From positions 1 to 52,275 of the forward strand of contig CALEVZ010000008.1 of the NCBI GenBank assembly GCA_937924755.1: a stretch of 52,275 nt of DNA, in the 5' to 3' direction. Below the pieces are notes generated by a model. The model was not told where the DNA came from. It did no database searches and saw only the letters and a program-made list of their open reading frames with translations. The translations under genes were made by a program, and so were the position numbers. Source of the DNA: an uncultured bacterium. Its GTDB lineage: Bacteria > Acidobacteriota > Thermoanaerobaculia > Thermoanaerobaculales > Thermoanaerobaculaceae. This document shows, piece after piece, positions 8,918 through 15,626 of this stretch (position 1 is the stretch's first letter; the number at the start of each line of letters is the position of its first letter).

Positions 8918-9435
8918 CTGGCGTGACCCGCGCCCGCCGCGCCGGCTATCACCTGCTCCCGCCACCGCTCGAGCCGCAGCTCTCCCGCCCTGCCCCCGAA
9001 GCGGGCCACCAGCGCCGCCTGCCGGAAGGCGAAGATGCGGCGGACATCCCTCCCCACGAAGAGAGCCTGGGCGAGTCGGCCCCCCCGGGGGCGGTAGCGA
9101 ACCCGGTCGACGACTAGCGTGCCGGTGGGCGTTGGCTCGAAGAGATGCTCATGCACCCAAGAATGGTAGGGGCCGGCCAGCTGGCGGTCGACGAAGCGCT
9201 CGGGCGGCTGCCAGATGGCAATCTCGGTGCGCCAACCGAAGGGGATGCCGTGCAGCTGCAGGCGGTAGTCGATGAGAGTGCCCTCCGCCATCGCGACGGG
9301 CAGGGGGGTGAGGATGCGAAAACGAAGCCAGGGCGGGGTGATGGCCTCCAGGTTCCCGGCGTCCGCGAAGAACGGGAACACACGAGGGCGGGGAGCGGAG
9401 AGAAGCACCGAAGCGGTCAGAATGAAGTTTGCCAT
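8896..9435 (-). CDS. SRPBCC family protein (CDP/cyclase-dehydrase-like)
   Basis: A 179-residue START/Bet v1-like hydrophobic ligand-binding protein. The pattern is typical of the SRPBCC proteins often annotated as cyclase/dehydrase: an N-terminal strand, then RVFPFFADAGNLEAITPPWLRF, GTLIDYRLQLHGIPFGWRTEI, and the helix that follows VDRVRYRPRGG. The helix near residues 125-150 should close the cavity. No catalytic residues are known for this group and the ligand cannot be predicted. In many genomes such genes sit beside SDR epimerases or photolyases; here the partner is sthA, overlapping by 22 bases at the 3' ends. ATG start without a clear Shine-Dalgarno. Confidence 0.75.
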   Translation of the reverse strand: MANFILTASVLLSAPRPRVFPFFADAGNLEAITPPWLRFRILTPLPVAMAEGTLIDYRLQLHGIPFGWRTEIAIWQPPERFVDRQLAGPYHSWVHEHLFEPTPTGTLVVDRVRYRPRGGRLAQALFVGRDVRRIFAFRQAALVARFGGRAGELRLERWREQVIAGAAGAGHASYGTGSP

Positions 9436-9550
9436 ACACGGTGTCAGCGATCAGCGGCACGAGCCGACGGGTCGACCACACCCGTGGAAATGAAACCGGC
9501 TCTCAGTAGAGTTTTCTGCCCATGAGCGATGTTTCTCGACGGGGGACGAC

Positions 9551-11314
9551 ATGTCCAGGAGCGCAGCAGAAAGCTTACCCAAATCCAACCAGGCGGTGGT
9601 CAACTTGCCCCGGCACCTGCAGCAGTTCGTCGTTGAGCAGGGGTGGGAACGGTACACCCCCATCGATCATGCGGTCTGGCGCTACATTATGTGCCAGAAC
9701 GTACGCTTCCTGCGCCACCACGCCCATCCCTCCTACCTGGAGGGCCTGGCGAAGACGGGCATCGCTTTGGACCGCATTCCCCGCCTGGAGGAAATGAACG
9801 AGGCGCTGGGGCGCATCGGCTGGGGGGCGGTCACCGTGGACGGCTTCATCCCGCCGGCGGCCTTCATGGAGTTCCAGGCCCACCGAGTGCTGGTCATCGC
9901 CGCCGACATCCGCCAGCTGGAGCACATCGAGTACACCCCCGCCCCCGACATCGTCCACGAGGCCGCCGGCCACGCCCCCATCATCGCCGACGCCACCTAC
10001 GCCGAGTACCTGCGGCGGATCGGCGAGGTGGGGGCCAAGGCCATCTCTTCCCGGGCCGACTGGGAGCTCTACGAGGCCATCCGCCACCTCTCCATCCTTA
10101 AGGAGGCGCCCGGCGTGCCTCCGACGGAGATCGACGCGGCGCAGCGCCTGGTGGAGGAGCGCCAGGCCAGCCTGGGCGAGCCCTCGGAGATGGCCCGCCT
10201 GTCGCGCTTGCACTGGTGGACGGTGGAGTACGGGCTCATCGGTTCTCTGGAGGGACCGAAGATTTACGGTGCCGGGTTGCTCTCGTCCATCGGCGAGGCC
10301 CAGCACTGCCTGACCGACGCGGTGGCCAAGCTCCCCTACACTCTGGCCGCCGCCGATGTGGCTTTCGACATCACCACCATGCAGCCGCAGCTCTTCGTGA
10401 GTCCGAGCTTCGAGCACCTCCTGGCGGTGCTGGAGGAGTTTGCCGACACCATGGCGTTTCGCCGGGGCGGGCTGGAAGGTCTCGCCCGGGCCAGGGAGTC
10501 GGGGGCGGTGGCCACCGTGCAGCTGAGTTCGGGGCTGCAGATTTCGGGCGTGCTGGCCGACGTTCTCGCCGACGACGGACGACCGGCGTATTTGCTCTTT
10601 CACGGGCCCTCGGCCCTGGCAGTGGCTGGCAAAGAGCTGCCCGGGCACGGCAAGGATTACCACCGCGACGGCTTCGGCACTCCCCTCGGGCGGCTCGAGG
10701 GCGAGTCGCTCCCCGTGGAACTCATGGGCGAGCACGATCTGCACCGCGTCGGCATCCAAGTCGGCCGGCTCGCCCGCCTGCGCTTCTCCTCCGGCGTCAC
10801 CGTGGAGGGTCGGGTGGCAACGACCCGTCGCCACCAGGGCCAGCTGCTCCTGGTGAGCTTTGAGGAGTGCACGGTGCGGCAAGGGGAGAGGATGCTGTTT
10901 CGGCCCGAGTGGGGGAACTTCGATATGGCGGTGGGGGAGCGGGTAACCTCGGTGTTTGCCGGCGCCGCCGACAAGGATGCCTACGAACAGCCGGTACTGG
11001 TGCCCAGGGAACGCACCATCAAGGTGGGGCTCGAAGGCCGCCAGCAGTTGGCCGAGCTGTACGGCCGGGTGCGGGCGGTGCGCGCCGGCGAGTTGCCTTC
11101 CCAGGAGCTGCCCCACCTGTGGCAGGAGGTGCGTCGCCGCTGGCCGGAGGACTGGCTGCTGCCTAGCGATTTGTACGAGTTGGCCTTGGATCGAGCGGAA
11201 TACGCTCCCCTGGCGGCGGAGCTGCGAGGACACCTCGAGAGCCTGGCGCAGCGACGCCCGGAACTGGCTCGGCTCATCGGCAACGCCCTGGCGGCGGCCG
11301 AGGAAGCCAGGTAG
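9551..11314 (+). CDS. phhA: aromatic amino acid hydroxylase (phenylalanine 4-monooxygenase type)
   Basis: Non-heme iron, pterin-dependent hydroxylase, most likely phenylalanine to tyrosine. Residues ~30-330 hold the catalytic domain: DGFIPPAAFMEFQAHRV is the pterin/substrate region, the iron ligands are H136 and H141 in HEAAGHAP, and the third ligand is E226 in TVEYGL. At 587 residues it belongs to the long bacterial form with ~250 extra C-terminal residues, whose role I do not recognise; this part is hydrophilic and contains two beta-rich stretches. ATG start. The convergent neighbours, ending 13 bases away, are an SDR and a triple PTPS protein, both plausible suppliers or recyclers of its pterin cofactor. 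The exact amino acid substrate is inferred from the family. Confidence 0.88.
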   Translation: MSRSAAESLPKSNQAVVNLPRHLQQFVVEQGWERYTPIDHAVWRYIMCQNVRFLRHHAHPSYLEGLAKTGIALDRIPRLEEMNEALGRIGWGAVTVDGFIPPAAFMEFQAHRVLVIAADIRQLEHIEYTPAPDIVHEAAGHAPIIADATYAEYLRRIGEVGAKAISSRADWELYEAIRHLSILKEAPGVPPTEIDAAQRLVEERQASLGEPSEMARLSRLHWWTVEYGLIGSLEGPKIYGAGLLSSIGEAQHCLTDAVAKLPYTLAAADVAFDITTMQPQLFVSPSFEHLLAVLEEFADTMAFRRGGLEGLARARESGAVATVQLSSGLQISGVLADVLADDGRPAYLLFHGPSALAVAGKELPGHGKDYHRDGFGTPLGRLEGESLPVELMGEHDLHRVGIQVGRLARLRFSSGVTVEGRVATTRRHQGQLLLVSFEECTVRQGERMLFRPEWGNFDMAVGERVTSVFAGAADKDAYEQPVLVPRERTIKVGLEGRQQLAELYGRVRAVRAGELPSQELPHLWQEVRRRWPEDWLLPSDLYELALDRAEYAPLAAELRGHLESLAQRRPELARLIGNALAAAEEAR

Positions 11315-11327
11315 GAGCGGCAGCTCT

Positions 11328-12026
11328 CTACAACGTCCCCGCCCGGTGGCCCACGGAGAGTTCCGACACCAGCACCTCCTGGGGGCGCTCCAAGGCAAAC
11401 GCGATGGTCTCGGCCACTTCCTGGGGAGCGAGCATGCGCTCCCGCGGCCAGACCCCCGCCACCCCGTCCCAGAGCTCGGTGGAGGTCGCCGCGGGGTACA
11501 CATTGACCACCCGGATCCCGGCCGGGCGCAGCTCCTCCCGCAGGCATTGGGAAAGCCCCTCCAGGGCGAACTTGGTGGCGCAATATGCGCCCCAGCCGGG
11601 GAACCCCTGTCGGGCGGCCACCGAAAGCACGTTGACGATGGTGGCGCCGGGGCCCATGCGCGGCACCAGGGCGCGGCACAGCAGGAAGGGGGCGGTAAGG
11701 TTGATTGCCAGGCTCTTCTCCCACTCCCGCAGGGTCAGCTCCGCCAGGGGCTTGACGACGGCCACCCCGGCGTTGTTGACGAGGGCGGCCAGTGGGTGTT
11801 CCCCGGCCGCCTCGGCGAGGGCGTCCACCTCCCGGGGACGGGCGAGGTCACCGGTGAGGCTGCGGGCTGCCCCTCCCCGCTCCCTTACCAGGTTCTCCAC
11901 CTCGCCCAGGGCAGCGGCGGCCCGGCCGTGCAGGAGCAATTCCCGGCCGGGCCGGGCCAGACGCAGCGCCAGTGCGCGACCGATGCCGCGGCTGGCGCCA
12001 GTGATGAGGATGCGCTCCACCCTCAC
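11328..12026 (-). CDS. short-chain dehydrogenase/reductase (candidate pterin reductase)
   Basis: A 232-residue classical SDR. The NAD(P)-binding TGASRGIG lies at residues 9-16, NNAG at 84-87, the active-site serine in LSVAA near 135, and the YCATK pair gives Y148 and K152. The length and the unusual PAATSTELW tail region are compatible with sepiapterin-reductase-like or dihydropteridine-reductase-like SDRs, but the sequence alone does not decide the substrate. The GTG start at 12026 overlaps the stop of the upstream triple PTPS gene (GTGA), so they are translated together. Next to an aromatic amino acid hydroxylase, a role in making or recycling tetrahydropterin is the natural hypothesis. Confidence 0.85.
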   Translation of the reverse strand: MRVERILITGASRGIGRALALRLARPGRELLLHGRAAAALGEVENLVRERGGAARSLTGDLARPREVDALAEAAGEHPLAALVNNAGVAVVKPLAELTLREWEKSLAINLTAPFLLCRALVPRMGPGATIVNVLSVAARQGFPGWGAYCATKFALEGLSQCLREELRPAGIRVVNVYPAATSTELWDGVAGVWPRERMLAPQEVAETIAFALERPQEVLVSELSVGHRAGTL

Positions 12027-13249
12027 TTTCCCCCTACTACCCGGCGCAGGGTGAAGCGGTTGTTCTCCGTCTCCCACAGGCGCAACCGCTGCAGGCGCCC
12101 GCGCAGGGCGTCGTCGAGACGGGGCCAGAGGATGCTCACGATGTTTTCGCTGGTGGAGGGGCGGTCGCAGAAGTCGGACGTTTCCTCGTCCAGGTGGACC
12201 ATCTGCCAGCGAGCCAGCGAGCCCTCCAGTGCCCTCTGCACCTCCCCCAGGTCGGCCACCGTGCCGCTGGCGGGGTCCAGCACCCCACCGCAGGCGGCCT
12301 CCACCACGTAGCGGTGGCCGTGGCCGGTGGGGTTGTTGCATTTCCCATAGATGGTCCGGTTAGTGACCTCGTCCAGCCGGGGGGCGTGCAGCCGGTGGGC
12401 CGCCCGGAAGGAGGACTCCACCACCAGGCGAGCACGTTCACCCCCCAGATACTCCGCCGACAGCCAGGACAACTCCCACAGGCGGGTACGCGCCACTGGC
12501 AGCGCCGCCTGCAGCCTGAGGAAGGCGTGACGAGCCAGCCACTCGCTGGTGACAGGCCCGCTCCGCAGGGCGGGAACATCCTCGTTGAGGTAGCGGTGGT
12601 CCAGTTCCTCCCGCAGGGCCCTCAGGGCCCCCTGGAGCTCACCCTCCGGGACGATCACGCCGCTGCGGGCGTCCACCTTCCCCGCAAGGGTGACGCGCAG
12701 GCGGTAGGAGTGGCCGTGCAGCCGGGTGGCCGCGCCAAAGAGGGCGCGGTTGGCCGACTCGTCGAGATGGGGGGAAAGGGTGCGGCGGGCGGCGCAAAAC
12801 TCCGCTGCGGCCCAGCGCTCCACCCTCCCGTCGGCGTACGCCGCCGCTCCCGCGCTGGGAGACTCGGCCAGGTGGCACACCACGGGCTGCGCCGTCTCTC
12901 CGGCGAAGGCTTCCCGCGCCTCCGCCAGGAGCGCCTGCGCCAGGTTTTCCAGGGTCGGGGGCAGCGTCGAGAAGGCGGGGTGGTCGCGGTTGAGGAAGTG
13001 GTGATCCCAGCGGGCGGCCAGTAACACCTGGATCCTTTCCTTCACCACCGCCAAATTCACCAACATCCCGGTGAGAGGCTCCACCGGTCCGGCAAAACCC
13101 ACCGTGGCCACGTAGTTGGCTCCCACCGAGTGGCGCGCCCGCGCCGTCTTTCCCCACAGGTGAAGCGCCTCTCCCGGCGCGCCTTCGCCTCCCAGCCGCA
13201 GCGAAGCGGCAAAGGGGAAGCGGCGGCTGACCGTCAAGAGCTCTCCCAT
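12023..13249 (-). CDS. three-domain 6-pyruvoyl/carboxy-tetrahydropterin synthase-like fusion
   Basis: A 408-residue protein made of three PTPS/QueD-type T-fold domains (about residues 3-130, 145-265 and 272-408); ordinary family members have one domain of 120-150. Only domain 3 looks catalytic: zinc histidines H285, H310 and H312, cysteine C304 in YGKCNNPTGHGH, the HLDEE and PTSEN-like (STSEN) segments and E393. Domain 2 keeps HGH at 178-180 and LDHRYLNED but has alanine where the cysteine should be. Domain 1 keeps WDHHFLNRD but has lost most metal ligands. ATG at 13249 is chosen; an in-frame GTG at 13267 lies 12 bases after a TACACT element and is an alternative. It is coupled to the SDR by GTGA. 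Confidence 0.85.
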   Translation of the reverse strand: MGELLTVSRRFPFAASLRLGGEGAPGEALHLWGKTARARHSVGANYVATVGFAGPVEPLTGMLVNLAVVKERIQVLLAARWDHHFLNRDHPAFSTLPPTLENLAQALLAEAREAFAGETAQPVVCHLAESPSAGAAAYADGRVERWAAAEFCAARRTLSPHLDESANRALFGAATRLHGHSYRLRVTLAGKVDARSGVIVPEGELQGALRALREELDHRYLNEDVPALRSGPVTSEWLARHAFLRLQAALPVARTRLWELSWLSAEYLGGERARLVVESSFRAAHRLHAPRLDEVTNRTIYGKCNNPTGHGHRYVVEAACGGVLDPASGTVADLGEVQRALEGSLARWQMVHLDEETSDFCDRPSTSENIVSILWPRLDDALRGRLQRLRLWETENNRFTLRRVVGGK

Positions 13250-13279
13250 AGCAGGAACCGTGCCCACAATCCAGGGGCC

Positions 13280-13285
13280 AGTGTA
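13280..13285 (-). promoter_or_regulatory. -10-like TACACT before triple PTPS gene
   Basis: Minus-strand TACACT, 12 bases before an in-frame GTG and 30 before the ATG. If real, the transcript starts only a few bases before the GTG. Confidence 0.3.
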
Positions 13286-13386
13286 GCGAAATCCTACCCC
13301 CGAGGTGCAACCGGCGCCGCAGATGGGCGATTTCGGCGCCGTGGACGGTGGCAGGGAGTTCATCGGCCCAACGCGGGGGAAAGAAT

Positions 13387-13411
13387 TCGGGGGACCGCAC
13401 TGGTCCCCCGA
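13387..13411 (-). terminator. rho-independent-type terminator after the TonB receptor gene
   Basis: A 10-bp perfect stem (TCGGGGGACC against GGTCCCCCGA) with a 5-base loop, followed on the minus strand by ATTCTTTC. It separates the receptor gene from the PTPS-SDR unit. Confidence 0.6.
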
Positions 13412-13439
13412 CATCTCTCTTGCCCGATCCAGGAAAGGA

Positions 13440-15626
13440 TCAGAATTTGCCGCGCAGCACCAGCTGGAGACTGCGGCCGGGGGCCAAAGCCGCCGCCTCG
13501 TCGGCGGACCCCGGGTACGCCCGGTCGGTGAGGTTGCGCCCCAGCAGCGAGAGATCCACCCCGGAGGGGAAACGATAGCCGATACTGGCGTCCACCACCG
13601 TGTAGCCAGGCATCACCTTTTCGGTGGGGCCCGGGCGGTCGTCGCGGGCGTAGGCCGCCGTGCGCGCCATCCAGGTCAGCCCCTCCGCCGGCTCGTGGCG
13701 ATAAACCACGAAAACGCCCCGCGGGGGGATGTCGTCCACCGGCTTCTTGTCCCCGCGGACCTCGCCGCGCAGGACTTGGGCACCGAACCCCAGGGAGTGT
13801 TCGCCCGCGACTGCCCACGCCGCTTCCAACTCGGCGCCGCGGATCTCCGCCTCGCCGCGGTTGCGGAAGAAGAAGTTGTCCCCCGTCCGGTAGCGCTCGA
13901 TGAGATCCTCGATGCGGTAGAGGTAGCCGTACGCGCCCAACGAGAAGGGGCTGGCATGCCAGCGCAACGCCACGTCGTACTGGGTGCTGCTCTCTGGCTT
14001 CAGGTCGGGGTTGCCGGTGATGAAACCGCGTCCGGAAATACCTCGGTAAAACCGATCGGAAAGCAGTGGCGAACGGAACCCCTTCGCCGCCTGCAGCGTC
14101 AGCTCGGCACCGGCGCCGAGGAGAAACGTACCGGCAAGAAAGCCAGAACCCTGGGAGTCGGTGACGCTGCGATCACCAAAGTAACCGCCGCTGTTCTTCG
14201 CCCGCACCTGGTCCGCCCGCACCCCAGCGGCCAGACGGACCCTGCCCACCTCCGCGTCGACGGCCGCAAAGGCCGCGTAATCGTCCCGACGGGCATCGGC
14301 GACCGACACTTCTCTGCTGGTTGCAGTCGGCGCACATGTCGGGCACTGCCCGTAGGTTAAGGTGGAGTTGATGGCAGAAAGGTTGTAGCGGCCGGAGACG
14401 TCAATCCCCACCACCAGTTTCGCCAGACCGGCCAGTGCACGCTCTCCCTCCACCCGCAACGAGTAGTCGTTGGCTTCCACGTCAGCACGGGAGACGGTGC
14501 GCGGCCTGGTGGAGGTGGCGAAGACGTCGCGATCAAGAATCACTTGATAGCTGTCCCAGGCGAGGGTGACGCCCAGCCGCGACCACTTCCCGGGACCGGG
14601 CTGCTGATAACTGACGTTGAACCGGTGGGAATTCTCCTCGGGATAAAAGGTCCGCCGCACGGCAAACTGGGGTTCAGGTTTGCCGATGTGGCGCCCGAAG
14701 TCGCTGCGCCACCCCAGCCCCAGTGTCCCCCCCAGAACCGGTACCTGGTAGGCTAGACGGAAGCCGCGGTGTTCGGCGTCGGAGTTGGGCACCCGACCAT
14801 GGGGGCCCAGGTATTCGTCGAAAACCCGAAAGTGGCCGCCCACCAGGAGAGCGCCGGCGCCCACCGGCGCGCTGACGTCGACCGCTCCGCCACCCCCGCG
14901 CAAGCCGTACGCGCCGAAAACACTGTACCGAGCCTCGAAGGGCTGCCCCGGCACGGGCAGCCGGGAGCGAGCTCGTATGACGCCGCCGAAGGCGTCGGAG
15001 CCGTAGGCCACCGATCCGGGTCCGCGAACCACCTCGATCTCGTCCACCGTCTCCGGGACCAGGAAAGTGGCCGACGGGCCGGCGCGCCGCTCGGCGGTGA
15101 CACGGCCATCATCCAGGAGAAGAAGGGTGCGGTGCTTGGGCAGTCCGCGCAAACCCGGGACAGGGTCGTAGCCGTCCGCCGCCCCCGTCGCTCCGGGGAT
15201 GTTCTCCAGGACCTGCGGGAAGTTCACCGGCAAGCGCCGCGCGAGATCCTGCTTTCCCATCACCGTCCCGGCGGCGGCGGGGGGCAGGTGCAAGTCAGGC
15301 ACCCCCCCTGAGACGACGGTGACGCTTTCGGCGAGGGTCTCCAGCCGCACCACCAGCACCTCGCCCCTGGGCGGCAACGCCTCCACGTAGACGGGGCGGA
15401 ACGCCACCCCGTCCGGGCGGGTCACCATGAGATAAAACGGCGGGCGCGGGTCCGGCTCGAGCCGGAAGCGGCCCTCGGCGTTCGCCACGACCGAGCCGGC
15501 CTTCCCCAGTTCGGACACGCGAGCGCCAGCCAGCGCCTTGCCGCCGGGTCCAATGACCTGGCCCTCGAAGGCGCCCGCCGCACCCCCAACCGCCAAACAA
15601 AGGCAAAATAGGATCACTTGTCGCAC
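13440..15626 (-). CDS. TonB-dependent outer membrane receptor
   Basis: Outer membrane transporter that imports a scarce ligand using energy from TonB-ExbBD. The 728 residues show a signal peptide (cleavage near residue 18, after AAGA), a carboxypeptidase-regulatory-like beta domain (~20-95), and then a plug domain with the typical NFPQVLENIPG, PGLRGLPKHRTLLLLDDGR and VDEIEVVRGPGSVAYGSDAFGGVI. The rest is a beta-barrel that ends in phenylalanine (LRGKF), the usual insertion signal. The start is GTG with AAAGGAGG six bases upstream. The ligand is not evident. A 240-base GC-rich leader precedes the gene, and a hairpin terminator follows. A siderophore, cobalamin or a plant-derived compound are all possible. 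Confidence 0.9.
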   Translation of the reverse strand: MRQVILFCLCLAVGGAAGAFEGQVIGPGGKALAGARVSELGKAGSVVANAEGRFRLEPDPRPPFYLMVTRPDGVAFRPVYVEALPPRGEVLVVRLETLAESVTVVSGGVPDLHLPPAAAGTVMGKQDLARRLPVNFPQVLENIPGATGAADGYDPVPGLRGLPKHRTLLLLDDGRVTAERRAGPSATFLVPETVDEIEVVRGPGSVAYGSDAFGGVIRARSRLPVPGQPFEARYSVFGAYGLRGGGGAVDVSAPVGAGALLVGGHFRVFDEYLGPHGRVPNSDAEHRGFRLAYQVPVLGGTLGLGWRSDFGRHIGKPEPQFAVRRTFYPEENSHRFNVSYQQPGPGKWSRLGVTLAWDSYQVILDRDVFATSTRPRTVSRADVEANDYSLRVEGERALAGLAKLVVGIDVSGRYNLSAINSTLTYGQCPTCAPTATSREVSVADARRDDYAAFAAVDAEVGRVRLAAGVRADQVRAKNSGGYFGDRSVTDSQGSGFLAGTFLLGAGAELTLQAAKGFRSPLLSDRFYRGISGRGFITGNPDLKPESSTQYDVALRWHASPFSLGAYGYLYRIEDLIERYRTGDNFFFRNRGEAEIRGAELEAAWAVAGEHSLGFGAQVLRGEVRGDKKPVDDIPPRGVFVVYRHEPAEGLTWMARTAAYARDDRPGPTEKVMPGYTVVDASIGYRFPSGVDLSLLGRNLTDRAYPGSADEAAALAPGRSLQLVLRGKF

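Follow-up and report, generated by a model that had tools for sequence, protein, structure and literature searches.

Genes of the pterin module

In this work, we analysed a stretch of 52,275 nucleotides (hereafter, the window) from contig CALEVZ010000008.1 of an uncultured bacterium of the family Thermoanaerobaculaceae (Acidobacteriota). It contains three neighbouring genes, encoding a pterin-dependent aromatic amino acid hydroxylase (AAH), an SDR oxidoreductase and a PTPS protein made up of three fused domains (table 1). Their reading frames are open and lie where a preliminary description of this DNA had placed them. The same description had correctly reported that the AAH and SDR genes converge, with 13 bases between their stops, and that the PTPS stop overlaps the GTG start of the SDR as GTGA. 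Since relatives of the SDR align only from its residue 3 onward, the GTG at 12020 is a possible alternative start. The interval 9300-13500 gave no sigma-70-like promoter and no excess of terminator-like sites over shuffles.

Table 1. Genes, PTPS domains and active-site residues of the module (residue equivalents follow rat PTPS)
Feature	Position	Strand	Basis or remark
AAH, pterin-dependent aromatic amino acid hydroxylase, long form (PRK14056), 587 aa	9551..11314	+	NF010657 and 7vgm match
SDR oxidoreductase with a probable role as sepiapterin reductase, 232 aa, starting with GTG	11328..12026	-	adh_short, 158 bits
Three-domain PTPS fusion, 408 aa	12023..13249	-	Pfam PTPS x3; full-length relatives in 11 other genomes
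PTPS domain 1, residues 1-138	12836..13249	-	without Zn ligands and Cys42; Asp-His retained
D82-H83 (Asp88-His89), domain 1	13001..13006	-	invariant, 12/12
PTPS domain 2, residues 141-267	12449..12829	-	His23->Arg, Cys42 lost; HGH and Asp-His kept
D217-H218 (Asp88-His89), domain 2	12596..12601	-	invariant, 12/12
PTPS domain 3, residues 270-405	12035..12442	-	complete Zn/Cys site, PTPS-II motif CxxxxxHGH
C304 (catalytic Cys42), domain 3	12338..12340	-	alignment to rat PTPS
H310-G-H312 (Zn ligands His48/His50), domain 3	12314..12322	-	alignment to rat PTPS
H285 (third Zn ligand), domain 3	12395-12397	-	alignment to rat PTPS
Q349-M350 at the Asp88-His89 position, domain 3; Asp-His lost	12200..12205	-	

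A C-terminal extension of about 250 residues in the hydroxylase had been described as unexplained. In a profile search, the full-length protein matched PRK14056 (NF010657) over residues 16-584 with 773.8 bits, against a cut-off of 346, and it aligned end to end, over 565 residues, with the 592-residue protein of PDB entry 7vgm (E 5.4e-162). The extension is part of family PRK14056, with a structure solved for a full-length relative; on these two matches we rejected its status as an unexplained segment. The likeness covers the whole AAH, C-terminal part included, and the copy of the window shows nothing distinctive.

Complementary active-site residues in fused, paired and unlinked PTPS

Searched separately with the Pfam PTPS profile (PF01242, cut-off 22.4), the three thirds of the fusion scored 59.7, 72.4 and 78.4 bits, and the whole protein 208 bits in three stretches, which bears out the presence of three PTPS domains in one chain. 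We numbered the residues after rat PTPS, by alignment to the protein of the window. Domain 3 has His23, Cys42, His48, His50, Glu107 and Glu133, and it alone carries the full zinc and cysteine site, as previously described. In domains 1 and 2, Cys42 and at least one zinc ligand are missing, and Asp88-His89, Glu107 and Glu133 are retained. Cys42 and Asp88-His89 do not occur together in domain 3, where Gln-Met replaces the latter; Asp-His is found in domains 1 and 2.

The Cys-Asp-His triad of PTPS is shared between subunits, one contributing Cys42 with the zinc and a neighbour contributing Asp88-His89. An intersubunit triad in PTPS is announced by the title of Burgisser 1995 (cited in PMC7546909), and the active sites are formed between adjacent monomers in a dimer of trimers (PMC7546909). 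The distribution of these residues was followed in 12 three-domain proteins, five from the family of the window and seven from Verrucomicrobia-labelled or same-class genomes. The zinc/cysteine site is present in 0/12, 0/12 and 12/12 of the first, second and third domains, respectively, and Asp88-His89 in 12/12, 12/12 and 2/12. The three zinc-binding His occur in one domain only in domain 3 (12/12), where the zinc ligands, Glu107, Glu133 and the PTPS-II motif are invariant. This motif, CxxxxxHGH, is the one of the BH4-type PTPS-II (PMC5041015); all 12 third domains have it, and it is missing from domains 1 and 2. The residues at 349-350 of domain 3 vary (QM, QD, QN, RD, DR, DG), and the loss of Asp-His there is not universal, since two genomes (G002 and G008) retain the pair. 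Cys42 has been substituted differently according to lineage (R, H, A, L, K, T/G/E), suggesting that it was lost repeatedly. Domains 1 and 2 had been regarded as dead. This does not hold for their part of the intersubunit triad: Asp88-His89 is invariant in both, which makes them look like donors to the site of domain 3. In a tree of 138 columns, the first, second and third domains of the triples each formed one clade, with domains 1 and 2 on long branches and their origin poorly resolved.

The fusion had also been expected to have a new geometry. In an AF2 model (pLDDT 84.5, pTM 0.85), however, neighbouring T-folds are packed like those of other tandem T-fold enzymes: domains 1-2 matched the tandem T-folds of urate oxidase (Z about 11, about 220 residues) and domains 2-3 matched GTP cyclohydrolase IB (Z about 9), while domain 3 superposed on human PTPS (Z 12.0, 1.2 A). 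Urate oxidase likewise has two fused T-fold domains per chain, but two rather than three, with another chemistry and with 6-11% identity to domains 1-2 and no clear sequence relation. Domain 3 shares with mammalian PTPS (rat 1b66/1gtq, human 3i2b) the fold, the zinc ligands, Cys42, the GKCNNPxGHGH stretch, Glu107 and Glu133, but the mammalian protein assembles six identical single-domain subunits with both triad halves in each, whereas the halves lie on different domains in the window chain. The PTPS-II with which bacteria such as Synechococcus make BH4 (COG0720) shares with the fusion CxxxxxHGH and a context of FolE and SDR; in a limited literature search we found no fused or split form of it, nor any description of a tandem or split PTPS.

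Two-domain fusions and adjacent gene pairs were also recovered by the phylum survey. In all seven two-domain fusions examined, one of them from a Bdellovibrionia MAG (L029), domain 1 lacks Cys42 and retains Asp-His, and domain 2 retains the Cys and has no Asp-His (0/7). The same complementary split is divided between two adjacent genes in a Bryobacterales pair (L031). In the other pairs, the upstream partner keeps Asp-His and the downstream one sometimes has it changed (EH, GH, GL, DQ, AH). The upstream partners and the first domains of five fusions from one family make up one well-supported clade of the tree (98/94). A Rokubacteria pair (L034) argues against a split site, because its first gene is Cys-less and its second retains both halves.

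We had predicted beforehand that a PTPS without His89 but with an intact zinc/cysteine site would be accompanied by a Cys-less, Asp-His-bearing partner elsewhere in the genome. Such an unlinked partner was located in six of the seven genomes with a His89-less PTPS (G039, G042, G045, G048, G051 and G057); none was located in G054, whose PTPS gene lies at a contig end, and none in 19 relatives with an intact PTPS. The association of partner and His89 loss (6/7 vs 0/19 genomes) has a hypergeometric value of 3e-5, which overstates independence because the 26 genomes share ancestry. The partners (L179, L182-L185 and L193, from G051, G057, G042, G039, G045 and G048) have lost Cys42, have Tyr in place of His48 and keep Asp-His intact. 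They occur only together with a His89-less PTPS and are probably its catalytic partners, easily taken for pseudoenzymes. When all cases are pooled, Asp-His is present in 39/39 Cys-less domains, in 3/27 Cys-bearing domains that have a Cys-less partner and in 19/20 unpartnered ones.

Gene neighbourhood and cofactor supply

The earlier proposal of a dedicated route to the hydroxylase cofactor is well supported by the gene neighbourhood. The set of three-domain PTPS, SDR and AAH recurs in a second phylum, where FolE, HPPD and HGD are added, and the genome survey confirmed the association of fusion and hydroxylase: PRK14056 is present in nine of the 12 genomes with a three-domain fusion, always on the same contig and within about 8 kb, and HPPD in exactly the same nine. 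No PRK14056 was found in the other three (G005, G008 and G425). Within the family of the window, it occurs in 3/5 genomes with the fusion vs 0/12 without (p 0.015), and in those three it is convergent with the SDR gene, tens of bases apart. Across the phylum, PRK14056 occurs in 35 of 396 genomes, mostly without the fusion; this PTPS is therefore not a prerequisite of the hydroxylase.

In Verrucomicrobia, the order is HPPD-HGD-FolE-(three-domain PTPS)-SDR, with or without a PAS protein gene next, and the hydroxylase gene runs on the other strand; from its gene content, this cluster reads as a route from GTP to tetrahydrobiopterin plus Phe/Tyr breakdown. FolE lies directly upstream of the fusion in five loci (L025, L028 and L159-L161) and about 1.5 kb upstream in two (L026 and L027). 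The PAS_6 (YheO-like) protein (L028:8153-9028, with equivalents in L025-L027, L159 and L161), encoded after the SDR and before the hydroxylase, is a possible regulator. In the genome of the window, HPPD and FolE are on other contigs and FolE is present in two copies; a single copy was found in each of the further fusion genomes that we searched. The second, divergent FolE gene (L139:495-1286, contig C72 of G000) stands beside a gene for a BLUF blue-light sensor (L139:50-565).

The SDR adjoining the fusion is 50-65% identical across the two phyla, and L027 is the sole fusion locus without a match to it. Against the PDB, sepiapterin reductase 2bd0 ranked 12th (E 1.4e-24), with 11 other SDRs above it; by this ranking, the protein does not stand out as specifically sepiapterin-reductase-like. 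BH4 recycling normally uses PCD (pterin-4a-carbinolamine dehydratase), which we did not find in the whole genomes G000, G002 and G005; G008, G015 and all four Verrucomicrobia genomes included in this search have it. In two loci (L039 of G008 and L040 of G005), the long hydroxylase and HPPD are both lacking, and the fusion and the SDR are followed by a GDPD gene. G005 also has molybdopterin-type genes near the fusion, and its only hydroxylase is a short form on another contig.

A probable split active site in one chain

Considering the residue complementarity we observed, its recurrence and the gene neighbourhood, we find it quite probable that the module of the window makes BH4 for the adjoining phenylalanine hydroxylase by means of a fused PTPS with a split site. 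FolE, encoded elsewhere in the genome, would convert GTP into dihydroneopterin triphosphate, from which the fused PTPS would form 6-pyruvoyl-tetrahydropterin. The SDR, as the putative reductase, would turn the latter into BH4, the presumed product, which the PRK14056 hydroxylase would use to convert Phe into Tyr. Zinc and Cys would come from domain 3, and the Asp-His pair from domain 1 or domain 2, or possibly from a domain of a second chain, so the chain would probably be a pseudo-trimer with one working site, and two chains would pair head to head as a pseudo-hexamer. A plausible guess for the donor is domain 2, since the Asp-His of domain 3 and the zinc site of domain 1 are the two halves that have decayed most and might lie opposite one another. 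The two-domain relatives misfit a simple ring of three, and a split site needs one Asp-His per zinc site, yet domains 1 and 2 both retain theirs.

A scaffold in which domains 1 and 2 aid assembly only, and domain 3 works alone with its own residues, would agree with the zinc ligands and Cys42 missing from the first two domains and with the Asp-His retained in domain 3 of G002 and G008. We consider it unlikely, because Asp88-His89 is invariant in the supposedly idle domains (12/12) and lost from the working one in 10/12 proteins, and because other fusions and trans pairs show the same split. It is more doubtful still that the Asp-His of domains 1 and 2 serves folding or binding and that domain 3 uses another base or makes another product, such as a folate or novel pterin. 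One pair would seem enough where two are retained, and residues 349-350 of domain 3 are variable, both in keeping with that possibility, but the PTPS-II motif, zinc ligands, Glu107 and Glu133 of domain 3 are invariant and the gene context consists of FolE, the SDR and a hydroxylase that depends on pterin. An automatic pipeline would label the fusion as the queuosine enzyme QueD, an identity that we find highly improbable: although the summed chain scores 114 bits with TIGR03367 (cut-off 89), the CxxxHGH motif is absent (domain 3 has C-x5-HGH, and the other two domains lack the Cys), contig C53 of the same genome carries a distinct QueD-like gene with C-x3-HGH, and no queuosine genes were identified next to the fusion. 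The motif and the separate gene led us to reject this identity; since the summed chain exceeds the equivalog cut-off, automatic annotation would probably mislabel 12023-13249 as QueD.

The best reading of our data is that a dead domain with a new geometry should give way to an active site split between the domains of a fused chain, among a wider set of heteromeric-looking PTPS. We consider it probable that several bacterial phyla have a heteromeric class of PTPS, composed of a zinc/cysteine subunit and an Asp-His-only subunit, encoded by unlinked, adjacent or fused two- or three-domain genes, of which the window would represent the most fused state, a covalently linked pseudo-trimer in which each chain has one working site. 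If so, a homo-oligomeric enzyme would have repeatedly become a hetero-oligomer with division of labour, its shared site being split between paralogues that were then fused, and PTPS would offer a clean, testable case for the evolution of heteromers from homomers. In practical terms, this view makes Cys-less PTPS proteins likely partners in catalysis instead of pseudoenzymes and puts right what is probably an erroneous QueD annotation; it also points out a compact set of genes by which bacteria make BH4.
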